NCBI GenBank assembly: GCA_013138735.1
Contig: WTCE01000018.1
Span: forward strand, 1-64,000
Length of the DNA: 64,000 nucleotides
Origin: Crocinitomix sp.
GTDB lineage: Bacteria; Bacteroidota; Bacteroidia; Flavobacteriales_D; Crocinitomicaceae
Direction: 5' to 3'
The notes under the pieces were generated by a model, which searched no databases, was not told the origin of the DNA, and saw nothing but the letters and a program-made list of their open reading frames with translations. A program made the position numbers and the translations under genes. Positions 31,701-61,712 of this stretch are shown piece after piece; position 1 is the stretch's first letter, and every line of letters begins with the position of its first letter.

Positions 31701-32075
31701 ATGGCTGAATTAAAAGAATTCGCAGAACAACTAGTTAACCTTACAGTAAAAGAAGTTAACGAATTAGCAACTATCCTTAAAGATGAGTATGGAATCGAGC
31801 CTGCTGCTGCTGCAGCTGCTGCTGGACCTGCTGCACCTGGTGCTGGAGAAGAAGTTGAAGCTCAAACTGAGTTTGACGTAATCTTAACTGCTGCAGGTGG
31901 ATCTAAACTTGCTGTTGTGAAATTAGTGAAAGAATTAACTGGAAAAGGGTTAAAAGAAGCTAAAGAATTAGTAGATAGTGCACCGGCTGCAGTTAAAGAA
32001 GGTGTATCTCAAGACGAAGCTAACGGTCTTAAGACTGAGTTAGAAGCGGCTGGAGCAGAAGTTGAAATTAAGTAA
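31701..32075 (+). CDS. rplL: 50S ribosomal protein bL12 (L7/L12)
   Basis: The 124-residue protein has an N-terminal dimerisation domain, an Ala/Pro/Gly-rich hinge ([18 protein letters not shown]) and the C-terminal domain ([27 protein letters not shown]). The latter recruits EF-Tu, EF-G, IF2 and RF3. A close relative of this C-terminal domain is found inside the vWA protein at 57449-59962. Confidence 0.98.
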
Positions 32076-54960: not shown

Positions 54961-55602
54961 ATGCAAGAGAATTATTTTTTGAATATGCTAAAATCACTAC
55001 GCGAAAGTGAAGAGGTTATTTTGTATCAAAATATTCTAAAAATATCAGCCGAAGAAAAAAAAATGACGACTGATTTTTTGCAAGAGGCTTACACAAAGGA
55101 AGAACTCAATTATCCGAATAAAGCACCTGAATTTGATGCGTTAGCTGCAATTTGGGCGGCAGAGGTGGTGTATTTAACGGCACAATTAATTTTGTATCGC
55201 AAAGATGAGATTGAAGCCTTGGCTGAATTATTTAAATCGGATCATATTCCTGTTACGGCGAGTTCAATGCTTTCAACTGATCTTTGTTTGCGATTTGTCC
55301 CGGACATGTTAATTGAATTGAAAATGATCGATCCGGAAGATCAATTGATTGAAGTTTTGGAGGGGATTATGAAAAAATGGCATTATTCAGCCATCAATTA
55401 CCAGCAGGAGGTAAATGATTTAAACCTTGATGCTATAGCAGCAAATCAATGTTTGAAACAACTTTATCTGAATCGAATCGTTTTGAAGAGGAATATAAAA
55501 TTAGCCGAACTCGACCTGTTCAATCAAGCGATTCACGGAAATTTGGGGATATACCAAAAAGAGTATTGGCCAGACTTTAAATTGAATGAAAAAAATGAAT
55601 GA
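54961..55602 (+). CDS. First gene of the MoxR-vWA operon, unknown all-alpha protein
   Basis: The 213-residue protein is predicted mainly helical from its repeating hydrophobic/charged pattern (EEVILYQNILKISAEEKKMTTDFLQEAYTKEELNYP; FDALAAIWAAEVVYLTAQLILY). It has no signal peptide. I recognise no enzyme motif. Its last 17 bases overlap the MoxR ATPase gene, so it belongs to the operon. In described MoxR-vWA-beta-propeller ternary systems several small companion domains (named bpX) are encoded alongside MoxR; this is probably one, but I cannot say which. Confidence 0.7.
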   Translation: MQENYFLNMLKSLRESEEVILYQNILKISAEEKKMTTDFLQEAYTKEELNYPNKAPEFDALAAIWAAEVVYLTAQLILYRKDEIEALAELFKSDHIPVTASSMLSTDLCLRFVPDMLIELKMIDPEDQLIEVLEGIMKKWHYSAINYQQEVNDLNLDAIAANQCLKQLYLNRIVLKRNIKLAELDLFNQAIHGNLGIYQKEYWPDFKLNEKNE

Positions 55603-56725
55603 TAATATAGAAAAATTAAATGCTGTTTTGAATTTTATCAAATCCACTTTTGTGGGGAAAGATGAAATAATAGATTTATTGGGGATTTCATTAATTGCAC
55701 GCGAAAACGCCTTTTTACTAGGCCCTCCGGGTACTGCAAAAAGTGCAATTGTAAGAGCATTGTCAAATTCAATTGTAGATGGAAAAAACTTTGAGTATTT
55801 ATTGACGCGCTTTACAGAGCCGAATGAGATTTTTGGTCCTTTTGACATTCGAGAACTCAAGGAAGGGAAATTAATGACCAATACCAGCGGCATGCTTCCA
55901 GAAGCTTCTATGATTTTTTTAGATGAGATTTTTAATGCCAATAGTGCCATTTTAAATAGTCTTTTATTGGCATTAAATGAAAAGATTTTTAGAAGAGGTC
56001 AGGAAACGAGAAAAATTCCTGCACTAATGTTTGTTGGTGCAAGTAATGTCTTACCTGAAGATGAATCATTAGATGCCTTATTGGATCGATTTTTAATCCG
56101 CGTCCGTTGCGATTATGTTAATCCAGATTTATTGGAACAAGTTTTACTAGCGGGTCGAAAATTAGAATTAGAAACTACTGAACCGCCAAAAATCAATCCT
56201 ACTGAAATTATCCAATTGCAGAATGAAGCGAAACAAGTTGATTTGTCAACCGTGCGTGGTCCCTTTGTTAATTTGGTGCATAGTTTACGAAATACGGGGA
56301 TTAATGTTTCGGATAGACGAGCGGTTAAAATTCAAAATTTATTAGCCGCAAGCGCATTAATTTGTGGGAGAAGCGAAGCGATATTATCCGATTTATGGGT
56401 GCTCAAATACATCTGGGATACCGAAGAACAAATTGAAATATTGTCGGGATTAATCGATACGATTATTGATAAAGATGAGGCTGAATTGGCGCATCCTCAG
56501 GCTAAGTTTAATAAAATTCCAAATCCAGAGGAACTGATAAAAGAAGTAGAGTTATTGACCAGTCAATGGGACAATGGCAGCCTATCTTTTGAAGAACAGA
56601 ATGTGGTGAAAGATAAACTGCGCTACGTTCAAACGCGCTGCGGTTGGATTAAAAACGAAACACATAAAGAACATTTGTTAACAGAAATAGAAACGTTATG
56701 GCACAAGATGCTGCAGACAGTGTAA
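55586..56725 (+). CDS. MoxR-family AAA+ ATPase of a ternary system
   Basis: The 379-residue protein has Walker A GPPGTAKS (46-53), Walker B MIFLDEIF (109-116), sensor 1 GASN (151-154) and an arginine finger at R168 (LLDRFLIR). FTEPNEIFGPFD is the MoxR/RavA signature. The C-terminal lid contains VRGPFVNLVHSLR and VSDRRAVKIQ. MoxR ATPases remodel or activate partners bearing vWA domains, and a vWA protein is encoded two genes downstream. It overlaps its neighbours on both sides (17 and 28 bases). The start may also be 55595 (second Met). Confidence 0.93.
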   Translation: MKKMNDNIEKLNAVLNFIKSTFVGKDEIIDLLGISLIARENAFLLGPPGTAKSAIVRALSNSIVDGKNFEYLLTRFTEPNEIFGPFDIRELKEGKLMTNTSGMLPEASMIFLDEIFNANSAILNSLLLALNEKIFRRGQETRKIPALMFVGASNVLPEDESLDALLDRFLIRVRCDYVNPDLLEQVLLAGRKLELETTEPPKINPTEIIQLQNEAKQVDLSTVRGPFVNLVHSLRNTGINVSDRRAVKIQNLLAASALICGRSEAILSDLWVLKYIWDTEEQIEILSGLIDTIIDKDEAELAHPQAKFNKIPNPEELIKEVELLTSQWDNGSLSFEEQNVVKDKLRYVQTRCGWIKNETHKEHLLTEIETLWHKMLQTV

Positions 56726-57456
56726 AGTTTTATTTACGGGTTGAAAAGGCGTTTCAAAATGATTTGGCTGAATTAAGAGCTTGGGCAAATTTGAAAGTGG
56801 CAATTGAAGCAGATGAAATTTGGGTGACGAATTTCACCTATGATCAAATTCATTCCACAATTGTAAAGCAAATACCTTTTAAGACCCTGTATTATGCGAA
56901 GAATGGTAAACTGTTTTTCTTGAACAGTCGTTTGCCAGAAAAAAAGGAACCACAATTTTTGTGGACTCCAATTGTGCGTGCTACGCCATTAAGTTTGGTA
57001 GATTATAATCATAACTATTTCGGAGTAAATGAATCCATTGATATTGCATTCGTCCAATCTGAAATAGAACAAAATCCAGCGGCGATTTTAACTGATTTAT
57101 CCATCCTAAATGATTTTATTCAAAACGCACCAGCCGTTAGATTAGCAAATTTGAAATGGTGCCTAATTAATGAAAGTAAAGCATTGATTATTGGTAGTCC
57201 TTTATTACCAATTAATGGTAAAGTATTTTGGAAATCGCATTTAATGTTTTTGCCAACCGGTTGGAATTTTGAACTGTCAATTGCCGCTGATTTAATTGAA
57301 AATTTGATTAATGAGGATAAATTAGAATACATTTTATGGAATGAGCAAGGGCAATTTTCAAGAATTCCAATCGCTTCGTTTCAATCCTTATCAATCAGTT
57401 CATTTCGCAAATCTGTAACTGCAGACGGACATAAAATTTTGTTGGAAAGTGAATAA
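56698..57456 (+). CDS. MoxR-operon companion protein (bpX-like)
   Basis: The 252-residue protein overlaps the MoxR gene by 28 bases and the next gene by 8. The N-terminal part is helical with many aromatic residues (FYLRVEKAFQNDLAELRAWANLK). The C-terminal half contains KWCLINESKALIIGSPLLPINGKVFWKSHLMFLPTGWNFE, a 'P..G..FW....LPTGW' block. I believe this is typical of companion domains in MoxR-vWA-beta-propeller systems. No catalytic residues can be named. Probably cytoplasmic, acting with MoxR and the vWA protein. Confidence 0.65.
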   Translation: MAQDAADSVKFYLRVEKAFQNDLAELRAWANLKVAIEADEIWVTNFTYDQIHSTIVKQIPFKTLYYAKNGKLFFLNSRLPEKKEPQFLWTPIVRATPLSLVDYNHNYFGVNESIDIAFVQSEIEQNPAAILTDLSILNDFIQNAPAVRLANLKWCLINESKALIIGSPLLPINGKVFWKSHLMFLPTGWNFELSIAADLIENLINEDKLEYILWNEQGQFSRIPIASFQSLSISSFRKSVTADGHKILLESE

Positions 57457-59962
57457 TTACCTGTCCTTATATAAAAACTATTTTTGGCAGTGGGAAGATG
57501 GCGCTCAGGTCATTGCAATTCCTGATGGGAGTACAATTGTTTACCGACAATTAATGGGAGAGATCTTGACTGAATTATATCCTGATGGAATACCTCCTTT
57601 TGGATCTATTTTATTGGCATTAGCCGTTTTACATCCACAGGGAAAGGAAAATAGTGACCAGATTTTTCAAATCACAAGGCAATTAGACGATCCTGAAATT
57701 AATACTGAAAAATATAGTGACGAAGCTTTTGGTTTTTTACGAATGTTGGAAACCATGCCTGCAAAATATAAAACAGGCGATTTAAAAAAATATGTAATTC
57801 GTGCTTTGTTTCGAGATGCTCATAATAGCATTTCATTGAAGAAGTCACAAGGGATTTCCTCAGATTTTGATAGTTTTCAGCACAATTACAACCCTGCAAA
57901 ACTATCTCAATCTGCATTTGATAAAGATTTTAGAGTCATTGCATTGTTAAGTCGTGAATTTGATTCTGTAAACTCAATAATTGACAAAATTAATACGCTT
58001 CCAGATTTAGAAGAAAACCTTAACCTAGAAGAAATTGACAAAGAGGGTCCAAAAGATTTTATTGATGAATTAATCATGAATCCAGGCACGCATAAAGTGG
58101 GAGCATTGGTAAAAGTTTTATGGTCGGGATTAAACTTGCCGGTGAAAAGTAGTCAGCCCAGTCAGATGCCAATGGGCGGCGTATCCGACTTAACCAATAA
58201 AGGGCAATTACCGCAATTATTAATTTCAGAATTTGCAAATGATGATTTGATTTTTCTTTCGCGCCTTGCAAATAATGAAGCACTTTACCTCAACCGTGAA
58301 TCGCCGCCAACCGAGAACGATATGCGCCGCGTTATTTTAATTGATGTTTCGCTAAAAAATTGGGGTACGGCCAAAACAATTGCTTTTGCAACAATGCTCG
58401 CAATTGCTAAACATCCTAAAACAACAATTGATTGTGATGTTTTTGTAGTTGGAGAAACATTTCAAAAGGTAGTATACAATACAGTTGAAGGAATAATGAA
58501 AGCCTTGCAAATTGTAGACGCCTCCTTAGAGCCTTCTAAAGGTTTGCAAAATTATTTCGACATATTTCCGGCTAACAAAAATCAGGAGGTTTTTGTATTG
58601 ACTGAACGGACAACAAAAAATAATCCTAACATGCTAAAAACAATGCATGATTTAGGCGCGGATATTAGTTATTGGATTTATAATGATGCCCAAGGACATA
58701 TTGATGTTTATAAGAAATTAAAAACAAGCAGTAAGCATTTGCAACACCTTGAATTGCCGTATGAGCAATTGTGGCAGAAGCAAGGATCAAAAAAACCGAA
58801 AAGAAAAAAGGAAGAGCAAGCAGATGAAAGTTTTTACCCGATTCTATTCCGCCCAATCGAGCGAGATAGAGCAGTAGCGGTGGTTGATGGAATGGTTTTT
58901 TTATTGACAAAAAGTAAAGCGTTATTTAGATTGTCATCCTCCAGTGTAAAACACCACGAAAAAGGCTGGGAATTTATAATGAAAGATTTGCCTTTTTATG
59001 ATCCTAATTTTAAAGTAGGTTGTTTGTCAAACGGAGAGTATTTGATGTTGCTTTATAATATGACTTCGAATAAAATTGCCATTGTTAATTTAAACACGAA
59101 CGAAGTCATTATAAAAACGGGAAAATCCTTTGGTGCAACAAGAGATAAATTTTCCTTTATCAATGATAAATTTTATCATCTACACGGCGATAAGCAGTTC
59201 AGTATAGATCAGTTTGGCGAAATGGAGAAAATCTTATCCATACGTTCTGAAACGATATCCGAAGAATATAAAGAGCTGATGGAGTATCATTCCAAACAAT
59301 CAAATCGGCACAATATGCTAAAGTGGATTACGAAGCTTGGCATAAGTGAAAAGGGCAATTTGACCTGTAATACAAGTCAATTGCACAAAGCATTTGGTGA
59401 GCATTTAAAATTGGAGGTATTTGCGGATGCACCCATGATGATAATGGCAGAAAGTTCAGAAGAAGGAATTTTCATTTTTCCTGATGGAAGTATTGTTCGC
59501 AATACTTTTCTAGGAATGATTGAATTAATAAGTAGTGATAAGAGTATTCCAATAATTTATGTCCCTACTGCGCTGAATGCATCACTGGGAGCAGCTACGC
59601 TTGATTCGTTTTCAGGAAATTCCTATTATTATAATCAACCACTATATGATGTGGTTTTGGAGGATGCAGGACCAAGTAAGCTACAAATTGTTAAAATAAT
59701 AAGAGAAAGTACGGCTTTAGGATTGAAAGAAATCAAAGAACTAGTGGATGATCCGCCAAAACGGATTCCCTTTTTGTTGGGTACAGAAGAGGCGGATGAA
59801 ATACTGAAGTCTCTTTCAGAATTCGAAGGCAAAGCACATAAAAAAGCACTAATGGCTAATTTTACCGAAAAGCCCGAAATTATTCCCATGTATAAATTTT
59901 ACACGACATATATTCAAGCATTTGTTGATGTCATAAAAACACACCATGGAGTTAAAGCTTAA
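57449..59962 (+). CDS. vWA plus beta-propeller protein with bL12-like C-terminal domain
   Basis: The 837-residue protein starts with GTG, overlapping the previous stop. Region about 1-290 is helical and charged. A vWA-like domain starts at VILIDVSLKNWG (D299, S301, then K303 where the MIDAS usually has Ser) and runs to about 440. A Lys-rich linker follows (KKPKRKKEEQ). Residues about 460-690 show repeated beta-strand units (VAVVDGMVFLLTKSKALFRLS; VGCLSNGEYLMLLYN; FSFINDKFYHLHGDKQFS), as in a beta-propeller. At Y733-I773 is a segment matching the bL12 C-terminal domain (SKLQIVKIIRESTALGLKEI); by hand 22 of 41 residues equal the bL12 at 31701. The vWA-propeller arrangement beside MoxR defines the ternary system; the L12-like part is unusual. 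Confidence 0.88.
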   Translation: MNNYLSLYKNYFWQWEDGAQVIAIPDGSTIVYRQLMGEILTELYPDGIPPFGSILLALAVLHPQGKENSDQIFQITRQLDDPEINTEKYSDEAFGFLRMLETMPAKYKTGDLKKYVIRALFRDAHNSISLKKSQGISSDFDSFQHNYNPAKLSQSAFDKDFRVIALLSREFDSVNSIIDKINTLPDLEENLNLEEIDKEGPKDFIDELIMNPGTHKVGALVKVLWSGLNLPVKSSQPSQMPMGGVSDLTNKGQLPQLLISEFANDDLIFLSRLANNEALYLNRESPPTENDMRRVILIDVSLKNWGTAKTIAFATMLAIAKHPKTTIDCDVFVVGETFQKVVYNTVEGIMKALQIVDASLEPSKGLQNYFDIFPANKNQEVFVLTERTTKNNPNMLKTMHDLGADISYWIYNDAQGHIDVYKKLKTSSKHLQHLELPYEQLWQKQGSKKPKRKKEEQADESFYPILFRPIERDRAVAVVDGMVFLLTKSKALFRLSSSSVKHHEKGWEFIMKDLPFYDPNFKVGCLSNGEYLMLLYNMTSNKIAIVNLNTNEVIIKTGKSFGATRDKFSFINDKFYHLHGDKQFSIDQFGEMEKILSIRSETISEEYKELMEYHSKQSNRHNMLKWITKLGISEKGNLTCNTSQLHKAFGEHLKLEVFADAPMMIMAESSEEGIFIFPDGSIVRNTFLGMIELISSDKSIPIIYVPTALNASLGAATLDSFSGNSYYYNQPLYDVVLEDAGPSKLQIVKIIRESTALGLKEIKELVDDPPKRIPFLLGTEEADEILKSLSEFEGKAHKKALMANFTEKPEIIPMYKFYTTYIQAFVDVIKTHHGVKA

Positions 59963-61712
59963 CATTTCAAGACATAGCGCTTATCCAATTGGTGGATTTT
60001 TAATTACAGGAAGCAATCCTAAGAATTGGTTGCTTGAAATTCAGGCACTCAATTTTCAATTGAATCAAGTTACTATTTATCCTATCCCAGGTAATGTGCC
60101 TAATTCCATTTGGGGATGCTTCGTTATTACTAATGCGAATATTGAAACAGGTGATTTAGGAAAAAATGAAGCCTGTCAACGCGTGTTTCCGAATTTGTAT
60201 ATTCCAGAAAAATCCAAATTAATTCCAAGTGTTTTAGCAAGTGATTATGAGCGTCATTTTTCTGAAAAAATGCATCTCTTGCATCCTGATTTTGGATTGG
60301 TAGAATTCAATGATGATTTTAAGTTGATAGCTTTATTCAACGTTCCAAAAGAACAATTTGTTTATACCTTCAAACCTGCTGAAAGCACTTTTATTCCAGC
60401 AAAAATTGATCGGTTTGAAGTACGAAAGGTGGAGGGTGAAGATCCATTAAAGAAACTGGAGGAAAAAGTAGTCCCAAAATCAGAAAAACTGCCCGATAAA
60501 CCATTGAATTTAAAAGAAAAGGTAAAGCTTAAACTTTACGATAAATTATTCAATCGAAAGAAAGACAAAGACGGAAATGAGACAATAGCGCCAACAGCCT
60601 TGCTAAAAGGTTTGAGTAAATTAAGAGGTGCTTTTGGATCTAAAAAAGGGTCAATTGATGGGATGCAACAAGATTTGGAGGATTTAGAAGAACGCAATAA
60701 GGCACAAGTTGATCGTTTGTTGGACATGTTAAAAAACAATCCAGACGAAGCCCTTAAATATGCTGTGCCATTAGATCAAAATGGATCGAGTCGAGGATCG
60801 AATGAGGGGCTGTTTGATATTTCAAAACGCAGGAATGGTTTTGGGCTATTTGGAGGGATGTTAGGAGGACTTTTTGGTGGTCTGGGATCAGGTGGTGGTG
60901 CTGGTGGTTCAGGTGGCGGATCTGTAGATATTGGAGATGGTTTTCACCGCTTATCAAATCAATATCATGAAACTGCGCGTGAACTTTTGGCAAAAAAAGA
61001 ATATGAAAAAGCCGCGTTTGTCTATATGAAATTGCTAAAACAATATGGTTTAGCTGGAGACGCTATGGCGCAAGGTGGATTTTATAATGAAGCCGCTGAA
61101 ATTTATTTGAAGTTTCAGAATAACAAAGCGAAAGCAGCCGAATGTTATGAAAAAGGCAAAATGATGACAGAGGCCATTGAATTGTATGCCGAATTGGGTC
61201 AGCACGAAAAAGTTGGCGACCTATATGTTGGACAAAATAAACGTGGTTTAGCCAACGAATTTTACCAGAAAAAAGTGGATGAACATCACAAAGGACATTT
61301 CTATGTTAAAGCGGCGGCAGTTTATAGACATAAAATGTTGCAAGATGAAGAGGCGCAACAAACTTTGATGCAAGGTTGGGATGAAAATCGACAAGGTTAT
61401 GAATGTTTAACAACCTATTTAGAACACATTCCCGAAAAGAAAAGATTGGCAAAAATTAACGGGGTATTTCGGGAAAAAGTAAATGACAGAAATCGGGAAG
61501 AATTTTTGAAAGTCATTCATCATGAGTTTAAAAAGAAGACACAACCTGAAAAAGAAAGCTTGAAAGAAATTGCTTATGAAATAGTTGCCGAGCAAGCAAA
61601 AATTAACTCCAATATTGTAGAAGAGTTGCGGAAATTCAATACAAAAGACACAGAGATTTTGAAAGACACGACCCGCTTTAAAATTTTAAAAGGCAAAGGT
61701 AAGAGGCGGTAA
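59946..61712 (+). CDS. Last gene of the MoxR operon: coiled-coil, Gly-rich linker and TPR-like repeats
   Basis: The 588-residue protein overlaps the vWA gene by 17 bases. Residues about 1-150 form a globular N-terminal domain (SAYPIGGFLITGSNPKNWLLEI). A highly charged Lys/Glu region with coiled-coil character follows (about 160-275). Residues about 298-332 are Gly-rich (GGMLGGLFGGLGSGGGAGGS). The rest has TPR-like helical repeats (ARELLAKKEYEKAAFVYMKLL; YNEAAEIYLKFQNNKAKAAECYEKG; MTEAIELYAELGQHEKVGDLY). The tail is basic (KGKGKRR). TPR repeats usually bind peptides, so it may be an adaptor presenting a target to the MoxR-vWA machine. Function is inferred from context. Confidence 0.72.
   Translation: MELKLNISRHSAYPIGGFLITGSNPKNWLLEIQALNFQLNQVTIYPIPGNVPNSIWGCFVITNANIETGDLGKNEACQRVFPNLYIPEKSKLIPSVLASDYERHFSEKMHLLHPDFGLVEFNDDFKLIALFNVPKEQFVYTFKPAESTFIPAKIDRFEVRKVEGEDPLKKLEEKVVPKSEKLPDKPLNLKEKVKLKLYDKLFNRKKDKDGNETIAPTALLKGLSKLRGAFGSKKGSIDGMQQDLEDLEERNKAQVDRLLDMLKNNPDEALKYAVPLDQNGSSRGSNEGLFDISKRRNGFGLFGGMLGGLFGGLGSGGGAGGSGGGSVDIGDGFHRLSNQYHETARELLAKKEYEKAAFVYMKLLKQYGLAGDAMAQGGFYNEAAEIYLKFQNNKAKAAECYEKGKMMTEAIELYAELGQHEKVGDLYVGQNKRGLANEFYQKKVDEHHKGHFYVKAAAVYRHKMLQDEEAQQTLMQGWDENRQGYECLTTYLEHIPEKKRLAKINGVFREKVNDRNREEFLKVIHHEFKKKTQPEKESLKEIAYEIVAEQAKINSNIVEELRKFNTKDTEILKDTTRFKILKGKGKRR

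Follow-up and report, generated by a model that had tools for sequence, protein, structure and literature searches.

The vWA component of a beta-propeller MoxR-vWA ternary system in Crocinitomix sp. contains a C-terminal domain of the ribosomal protein bL12. Copies of this domain occur at three insertion sites in related vWA proteins, and at two of them (A and C) the basic patch with which bL12 binds translation factors is, to judge from site rates, under strong constraint; at site B this constraint appears to be relaxed. The presence of an L12 domain in such proteins is already in print, and its apparent derivation from one lineage and the apparent preservation of the patch are added here.

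The author of a preliminary description of this DNA was not aware that the domain had been described. The systems were however reported as vWA-MoxR subsystem 4 by Kaur et al. 2020 (eLife 9:e52696, PMC7159879), who note L12/ClpS insertions "at different points" in the vWA proteins of several Bacteroidetes. In the accessible text of that paper one sentence is given to the domain, which is called multimerizing; a single lineage and retention of the factor patch are not mentioned there, and the defence or conflict role of the system is itself a prediction. The main text, as accessible, of two later papers on ternary systems (PMC8195603, PMC10907252) contains neither L12 nor ClpS, and no other report of L12 in MoxR-vWA systems was found in the open-licence literature.

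The L12 domain and its operon

The stretch of DNA analysed, referred to as the window, comprises 64,000 nucleotides (contig WTCE01000018.1, positions 1 to 64,000 of the forward strand). The features needed below are the following.

54961-55602, + strand: bpX4 gene (Pfam PF19920, E 8.1e-67)
55586-56725, + strand: bpMoxR AAA+ ATPase gene (Pfam PF20030, E 4.2e-97; P-loop GPPGTAKS)
56698-57456, + strand: bpX2 gene (Pfam PF19918, E 4.3e-72)
57449-59962, + strand: vWA component of the beta-propeller MoxR-vWA ternary system (open reading frame, GTG start, 837 aa)
57527-57988, + strand: bpX0 domain, residues 27-180 of the vWA protein (Pfam PF19915, E 1e-26, above the cut-off)
59471-59638, + strand: bpX1 domain, residues 675-730 of the vWA protein (Pfam PF19917, E 1.9e-12, above the cut-off)
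59642-59851, + strand: bL12 C-terminal-like domain, residues 732-801 of the vWA protein, site A (Pfam, AF2, Foldseek)
59645-59767, + strand: segment first noticed, residues 733-773, holding the first strand and the two factor-binding helices (rplL match, alignment in E. coli numbering)
59946-61712, + strand: third component, bpX3 and a helical-repeat (TPR-like) region (Pfam PF19919, E 5.9e-41)
31701-32075, + strand: rplL, the genuine bL12 gene of the genome, used as the comparison sequence (Ribosomal_L12 E 1.4e-26, Ribosomal_L12_N E 5.6e-14)

The genes for bpX4, bpMoxR, bpX2, the vWA protein and the bpX3 protein make up a five-gene operon on the + strand. The P-loop of the ATPase is invariant in 10 aligned MoxR sequences, the window's included, and the protein matches the RavA model with E 3.8e-57, below that model's cut-off. 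Pfam matches of the third component to Clathrin, SNAP and TPR_6 each fall below the cut-off. The product of 57449-59962 has no Pfam vWA match at E up to 1, and its vWA label is based on the operon, on the family description in Kaur et al. 2020 and on a modelled alternation of strands and helices at residues 293-424. The model has helices at residues 33-227, in the N-terminal part, and strands at 474-723, in the C-terminal beta region; propeller structures come up often among its best Foldseek matches, with poor superposition (rmsd about 19-25 A). The first metal-site motif (58343-58357) reads DVSLK instead of DxSxS, which we take to be the canonical form at this position, and the metal site of the vWA domain therefore looks degenerate.

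For residues 733-773 the preliminary description had counted 22 identities in 41 ungapped positions against rplL. This count is confirmed, the placement at 59645-59767 is correct, and the runner-up offset yields 8. Local alignment of the whole vWA protein with rplL gave a score of 118; over 1000 shuffles the score averaged 34 and did not exceed 55. The Pfam Ribosomal_L12 search that had been proposed as a check returned residues 733-792 with E 5.6e-14 and a score of 52.7 bits, well over the cut-off (25.9). The NCBIfam L12 model (TIGR00855) matches residues 730-795 with E 7.5e-11, below its equivalog cut-off, and phmmer finds the solved bL12 structures 1dd3 (E 2e-9) and 1ctf (E 8.2e-9). An AlphaFold (AF2) model built on 55 sequences, the window's and those of fetched loci, has a mean pLDDT of 84.7, with ten-residue means of 88 to 96 across residues 731-800. 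Its L12 domain consists of strands at 732-739 and 795-800, helices at 744-755, 759-767 and 779-791, and a two-residue strand (771-772) at the place of the middle strand of bL12; the relative placement of domains in the model is unreliable, given a pTM of 0.50. Searched with the whole model, Foldseek finds M. tuberculosis bL12 (8yeq), with TM 0.88 on the target, E 6e-4 and an rmsd of 2.0 A over 72 columns, as well as E. coli L7 (1rqu), with an rmsd of 1.6 A over 71. Structure prediction, which had been named as a possible refutation, thus gives the L12 fold, and the segment is a bL12 C-terminal domain by sequence and by fold. The stretch first noticed is real and is part of a longer domain, modelled to about residue 800.

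The bpX1 match covers profile positions 4-59 of 82 and ends two residues ahead of the L12 match; the L12 domain therefore interrupts bpX1, late in the profile. In the homologue L038, which has no L12 domain, the bpX1 match spans positions 2-82 of 82. The C-terminal helix that follows the L12 domain can be aligned across homologues and is probably the remainder of the bpX1 profile. The L038 protein (L038:4338-6923) ends, at the very C-terminus, in a fused TonB_C domain (PF03544, E 5.3e-18).

The term mimic, used in the preliminary description, is too strong if it means imitation of the stalk: bL12 is anchored through its N-terminal dimerisation domain, Ribosomal_L12_N, which Pfam at E up to 1 finds in rplL and does not find in the vWA protein. 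The same result bears on an alternative, in which the domain is an adaptor or oligomerisation module that makes contacts within the MoxR-vWA complex, either by multimerising or by delivering to the AAA+ ring in the manner of ClpS, and is unrelated to translation. This would agree with the word multimerizing in Kaur et al. 2020 and with the location of the domain in the propeller-bearing region of a protein that partners an AAA+ ATPase. The printed label has a weak point, however, because bL12 dimerises through precisely the N-terminal domain (PMC6753160, PMC10602876) that is unmatched here, and a Pfam search at E up to 1 found no ClpS family match in the vWA protein either.

Distribution and descent of the domain

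A scan with a MoxR alignment yielded at least 80 loci, the best by MoxR similarity, 74 of them with a complete vWA gene. Six were left out, three that run off the contig (L036, L047, L075) and three with no vWA match (L041, L049, L084). The 74 loci, the window and five genes (L018-L022) form a set of 80 proteins, in which Pfam finds bpX1 in 80 and Ribosomal_L12 in 41; since these loci are the best matches by MoxR similarity, 41 of 80 is not a prevalence. By iterated HMM the L12 domain is present in 42 of the same best-listed set and absent from 38 (39 by Pfam). The question of whether other bpX vWA proteins carry the segment is thereby answered, and absence from every homologue, which would have spoken against the domain, is not what is seen. 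A less biased draw consisted of 11 genomes with a bpX0 match, 10 of which could be judged (G265 is cut); an L12 domain is carried by 6 of the 10, namely four recognised by blast with rplL, the window's own, and G354, whose gene is the same as that of L024.

The 42 domain copies occupy three sites: 22, including the window's, lie late in bpX1 (site A), 18 just ahead of bpX1 (site B) and 2 earlier in bpX1 (site C). Sixteen of the site-B copies are labelled Flavobacterium and two come from other genomes. The site-C copies belong to Rufibacter hautae (L048), where bpX1 picks up again at profile position 28, and to a Cytophagales MAG (L053), where it does so at position 30. In a model of the L053 protein, residues 716-789 run through the complete beta-alpha-alpha-beta-alpha-beta order (mean pLDDT 80.8, pTM 0.42). 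The L12 module is optional, in that the operon is largely the same with or without it: most of the loci L024-L103 contain the five families in one order, with minor differences such as an extra ORF or a third component on two ORFs. On the MoxR tree, which comes from a quick search without bootstrap, the minimum number of changes is 8 for the presence or absence of L12 and 11 when four labels (A, B, C, none) are distinguished. No separate L12-domain protein was found beside the operons of L024-L103 among ORFs of at least 100 aa at E 0.01, and no other domain replaces L12 at its site in the 15 domain-less members of 39 aligned proteins.

Beyond these systems, 146 of 148 Bacteroidota genomes have an L12 match and, besides the window's own genome, two have a second one, weak in both cases. 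These second Ribosomal_L12 matches (G048:C36:29576-29659, in a frame of 447 aa, and G039:C4:245166-245297, in a frame of 202 aa) are possibly other non-ribosomal L12-like domains. No MoxR relative was confirmed in viral contigs, and the annotated features listed for L12 relatives in phage and plasmid records (20 and 66) are rplL. Two taxonomic labels deserve comment. A MAG labelled Thalassovita (Pseudomonadota; L028, PBYL01000306.1) has the operon with a site-A L12 domain amid Bacteroidota relatives, and this contig is possibly mis-binned or mislabelled. In a complete chromosome labelled Glaciecola amylolytica (L045, CP034120.1) the operon has the same position as in G390, of the window's family, and the label is probably wrong.

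In a tree of the 42 system domains and 27 bL12 rows, with only 74 columns for the 69 rows, bL12 splits off at a support of 87/92, all site-B copies group in a single clade (100/96) and those of site C join each other (95/79). The L12 domain of the window and its own rplL are identical at 70 of 123 DNA positions, with no identical run longer than 6. Repeated capture from the host rplL was rejected as the simplest reading on the basis of this split and of the DNA identity. The latter also leaves recent gene conversion with rplL, which the short distance between the two in the window had suggested, unsupported. A single old capture of a bL12 C-terminal domain followed by relocation appears, with moderate support, to be favoured over repeated capture, and the domain would then descend from one old lineage inside vWA proteins, with no recent copying of host rplL. 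The nearest relative of the window vWA protein, that of L024, is 64% identical to it. The L12 domain of L024:11218-13731 has diverged much faster (end branch 1.14 versus 0.23), and its MoxR is 92% identical.

The divergence of the copies also bears on a second alternative, that the domain is an integrated decoy, an imitation of the stalk C-terminal domain that is bound by invader proteins aimed at the stalk or its factors and so triggers the machine. Decoy-like inactive modules are proposed for related MoxR-vWA systems in the accessible text of Kaur et al. 2020, and a decoy would also keep a binding surface. If the domain were a decoy, its sequence would be expected to follow that of host bL12, whereas the copies have diverged as a lineage. 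The defence role is moreover a prediction in its own right, and PADLOC gives one weak match among the five proteins (MoxR, E 0.0042). We consider this reading quite unlikely.

Constraint on the factor-binding patch

In bL12, helices 4 and 5 of the C-terminal domain bear a conserved, positively charged site that binds IF2, EF-Tu, EF-G and RF3 (PMC6753160), and changes of K65 and K70 weaken the binding of EF-Tu (PMC10602876). Residues K744, K749, R752, K760 and K763 of the vWA protein are equivalent to K65, K70, R73, K81 and K84 of E. coli bL12, so that the window domain retains all five. The mean pairwise identity of the 22 site-A domains is only 25%. Of the 24 domains from sites A and C, 19 have lysine or arginine at position 65, 22 at position 70, 19 at position 73 and 22 at position 84. 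All four basic residues are present in 14, and the corresponding numbers for other bL12 lysines are 9 (K81), 5 (K95) and 8 (K100). There are exceptions: L059 has none of the four, L042 has two, and L024 has N at the position of K84 and E at that of K81.

Site rates yield a similar picture. Ranked from the slowest of 68 positions in the A and C copies, K84 is 2, K70 is 6, V66 is 7, R73 is 8 and K65 is 14, which places the slow patch positions among the hydrophobic core; R73, K84 and V66 are factor-contact residues as well, as we understand earlier mutational work on bL12. Five other lysines, each of them K in 12 or 13 of 13 bL12 representatives, rank 52 (K81), 65 (K95), 42 (K100), 35 (K107) and 58 (K120), and the ranks of the four patch residues differ from those of these five with p 0.008 (Mann-Whitney). 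A mean rank as low as that of the five patch positions was obtained in 15 of 100000 random draws. When the window and L024 were omitted, the ranks became 1 (K84), 5 (K70), 6 (R73), 8 (V66) and 18 (K65), and realignment without bL12 left those of the five positions unchanged within one place; no figures for 107, 108 and 120 are taken from this realignment, where the row of E. coli is out of register towards the C-terminus. K81, which likewise lies in helix 5 and is conserved in bL12, has decayed in the A and C copies, and of positions 67, 68 and 69, which we take to be part of the NMR-mapped contact region, the first two are not strongly conserved (ranks 56 and 34) and the third is moderately so (21).

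Simulation provided an expectation for lysines under no special constraint. When 5000 lysine sites were simulated along the same unrooted tree, starting from an arbitrary root, lysine or arginine was kept in a mean of 10.8 of 24 domains. Retention in at least 22 of 24 was reached by 3.2% of the sites and in at least 19 of 24 by 14.6%, and since 14.6% of sites equal K65 and R73, the case rests on the four residues together and on K70 and K84. The copies at site B, mostly from Flavobacterium, serve as an internal control. There the ranks are 67 for K65, 41 for K70, 27 for R73 and 28 for K84, and it is other positions that are fixed; because the site-B tree is shorter (6.7 versus 27.1 substitutions per site summed), this contrast is softer than the numbers imply. 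These copies suggest that the fold itself does not demand the patch residues.

The same data may be set against the alternative of a passive insert, a small stable domain that loops in the C-terminal region can tolerate and that is conserved mainly for folding. Such an insert might well be absent from 38 of 80 relatives (best-listed loci) and found at three sites, and much of the surface has drifted. If folding were the main constraint, however, basic surface residues would not be expected among the slowest sites, beyond the simulated expectation for four together, and the site-B copies stay recognisable domains without the patch residues. This makes the passive insert improbable in our judgement, more so than any other reading discussed. 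For the adaptor module considered earlier, the optional nature of the domain, its several sites and the lack of constraint on the factor patch in Flavobacterium are all congenial. On the other hand, the domain-less systems, whose operon is largely the same, would be expected to have an internal contact too, and slow evolution of exactly the factor-contact residues is not predicted by this reading. We regard an adaptor role as unlikely, if less so than the decoy.

Proposed role and known systems

The preserved gripping surface suggests that the domain may still bind translation factors. No other single explanation accounts for the conserved patch as well as docking of the machine on a translational GTPase, a possibility raised in the preliminary description, and on the sequence comparisons presented above we give such docking about an even chance; the patch could instead bind another acidic partner. 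According to the docking model, the A and C forms would mostly have kept the helix-4/helix-5 basic patch that contacts translational GTPases and would still bind an acidic helix of EF-Tu, EF-G, IF2 or RF3. The MoxR ATPase would in this way be brought to, or made responsive to, a translation factor or the translating ribosome. In Flavobacterium, where the site is another one and the constraint on the patch has been lost, the partner has probably changed. A fuller version, which is possible and which we put forward tentatively, is that a group of MoxR-vWA machines took over the factor-gripping domain of the ribosome and preserved its gripping face over a very long time, and that an ATP-driven remodelling machine thus seizes EF-Tu, EF-G, IF2 or RF3 and halts translation in an infected cell or senses an attack on it; Flavobacterium would at a later stage have moved the domain, with a change of partner. 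The known ribosomal partners and the conserved contact residues together provide a short list of candidate targets, which reduces the question of the machine's target to a simple binding test. A positive outcome would add a case in which a ribosomal binding module is reused outside the ribosome.

Among known systems, the RavA-ViaA and NorQ-NorD chaperone pairs resemble this one in combining a MoxR ATPase with a vWA partner, and we know of no L12 domain in either pair. The ClpS adaptor is a partner of an AAA+ ATPase. Kaur et al. 2020 name ClpS together with L12 as one domain; the vWA protein differs from it in showing no ClpS family sequence match. The closest likeness is to the beta-propeller MoxR-vWA ternary systems, after which the families bpMoxR and bpX0-bpX4 of the window operon are named. 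The P-loop of their MoxR proteins is often GXXXTAKS, and GPPGTAKS in the window conforms to this; the vWA component has an N-terminal helical domain and a C-terminal beta region, and a TPR-like third component and the linked bpX2 and bpX4 genes lie in the same operon. From ribosomal bL12 the protein differs in that it has no match to the N-terminal dimerisation domain and carries its L12 domain fused into 837 aa, apparently as a separate lineage. With the C-terminal domain of bL12, the window domain shares its sequence, its fold and the factor-contact residues.
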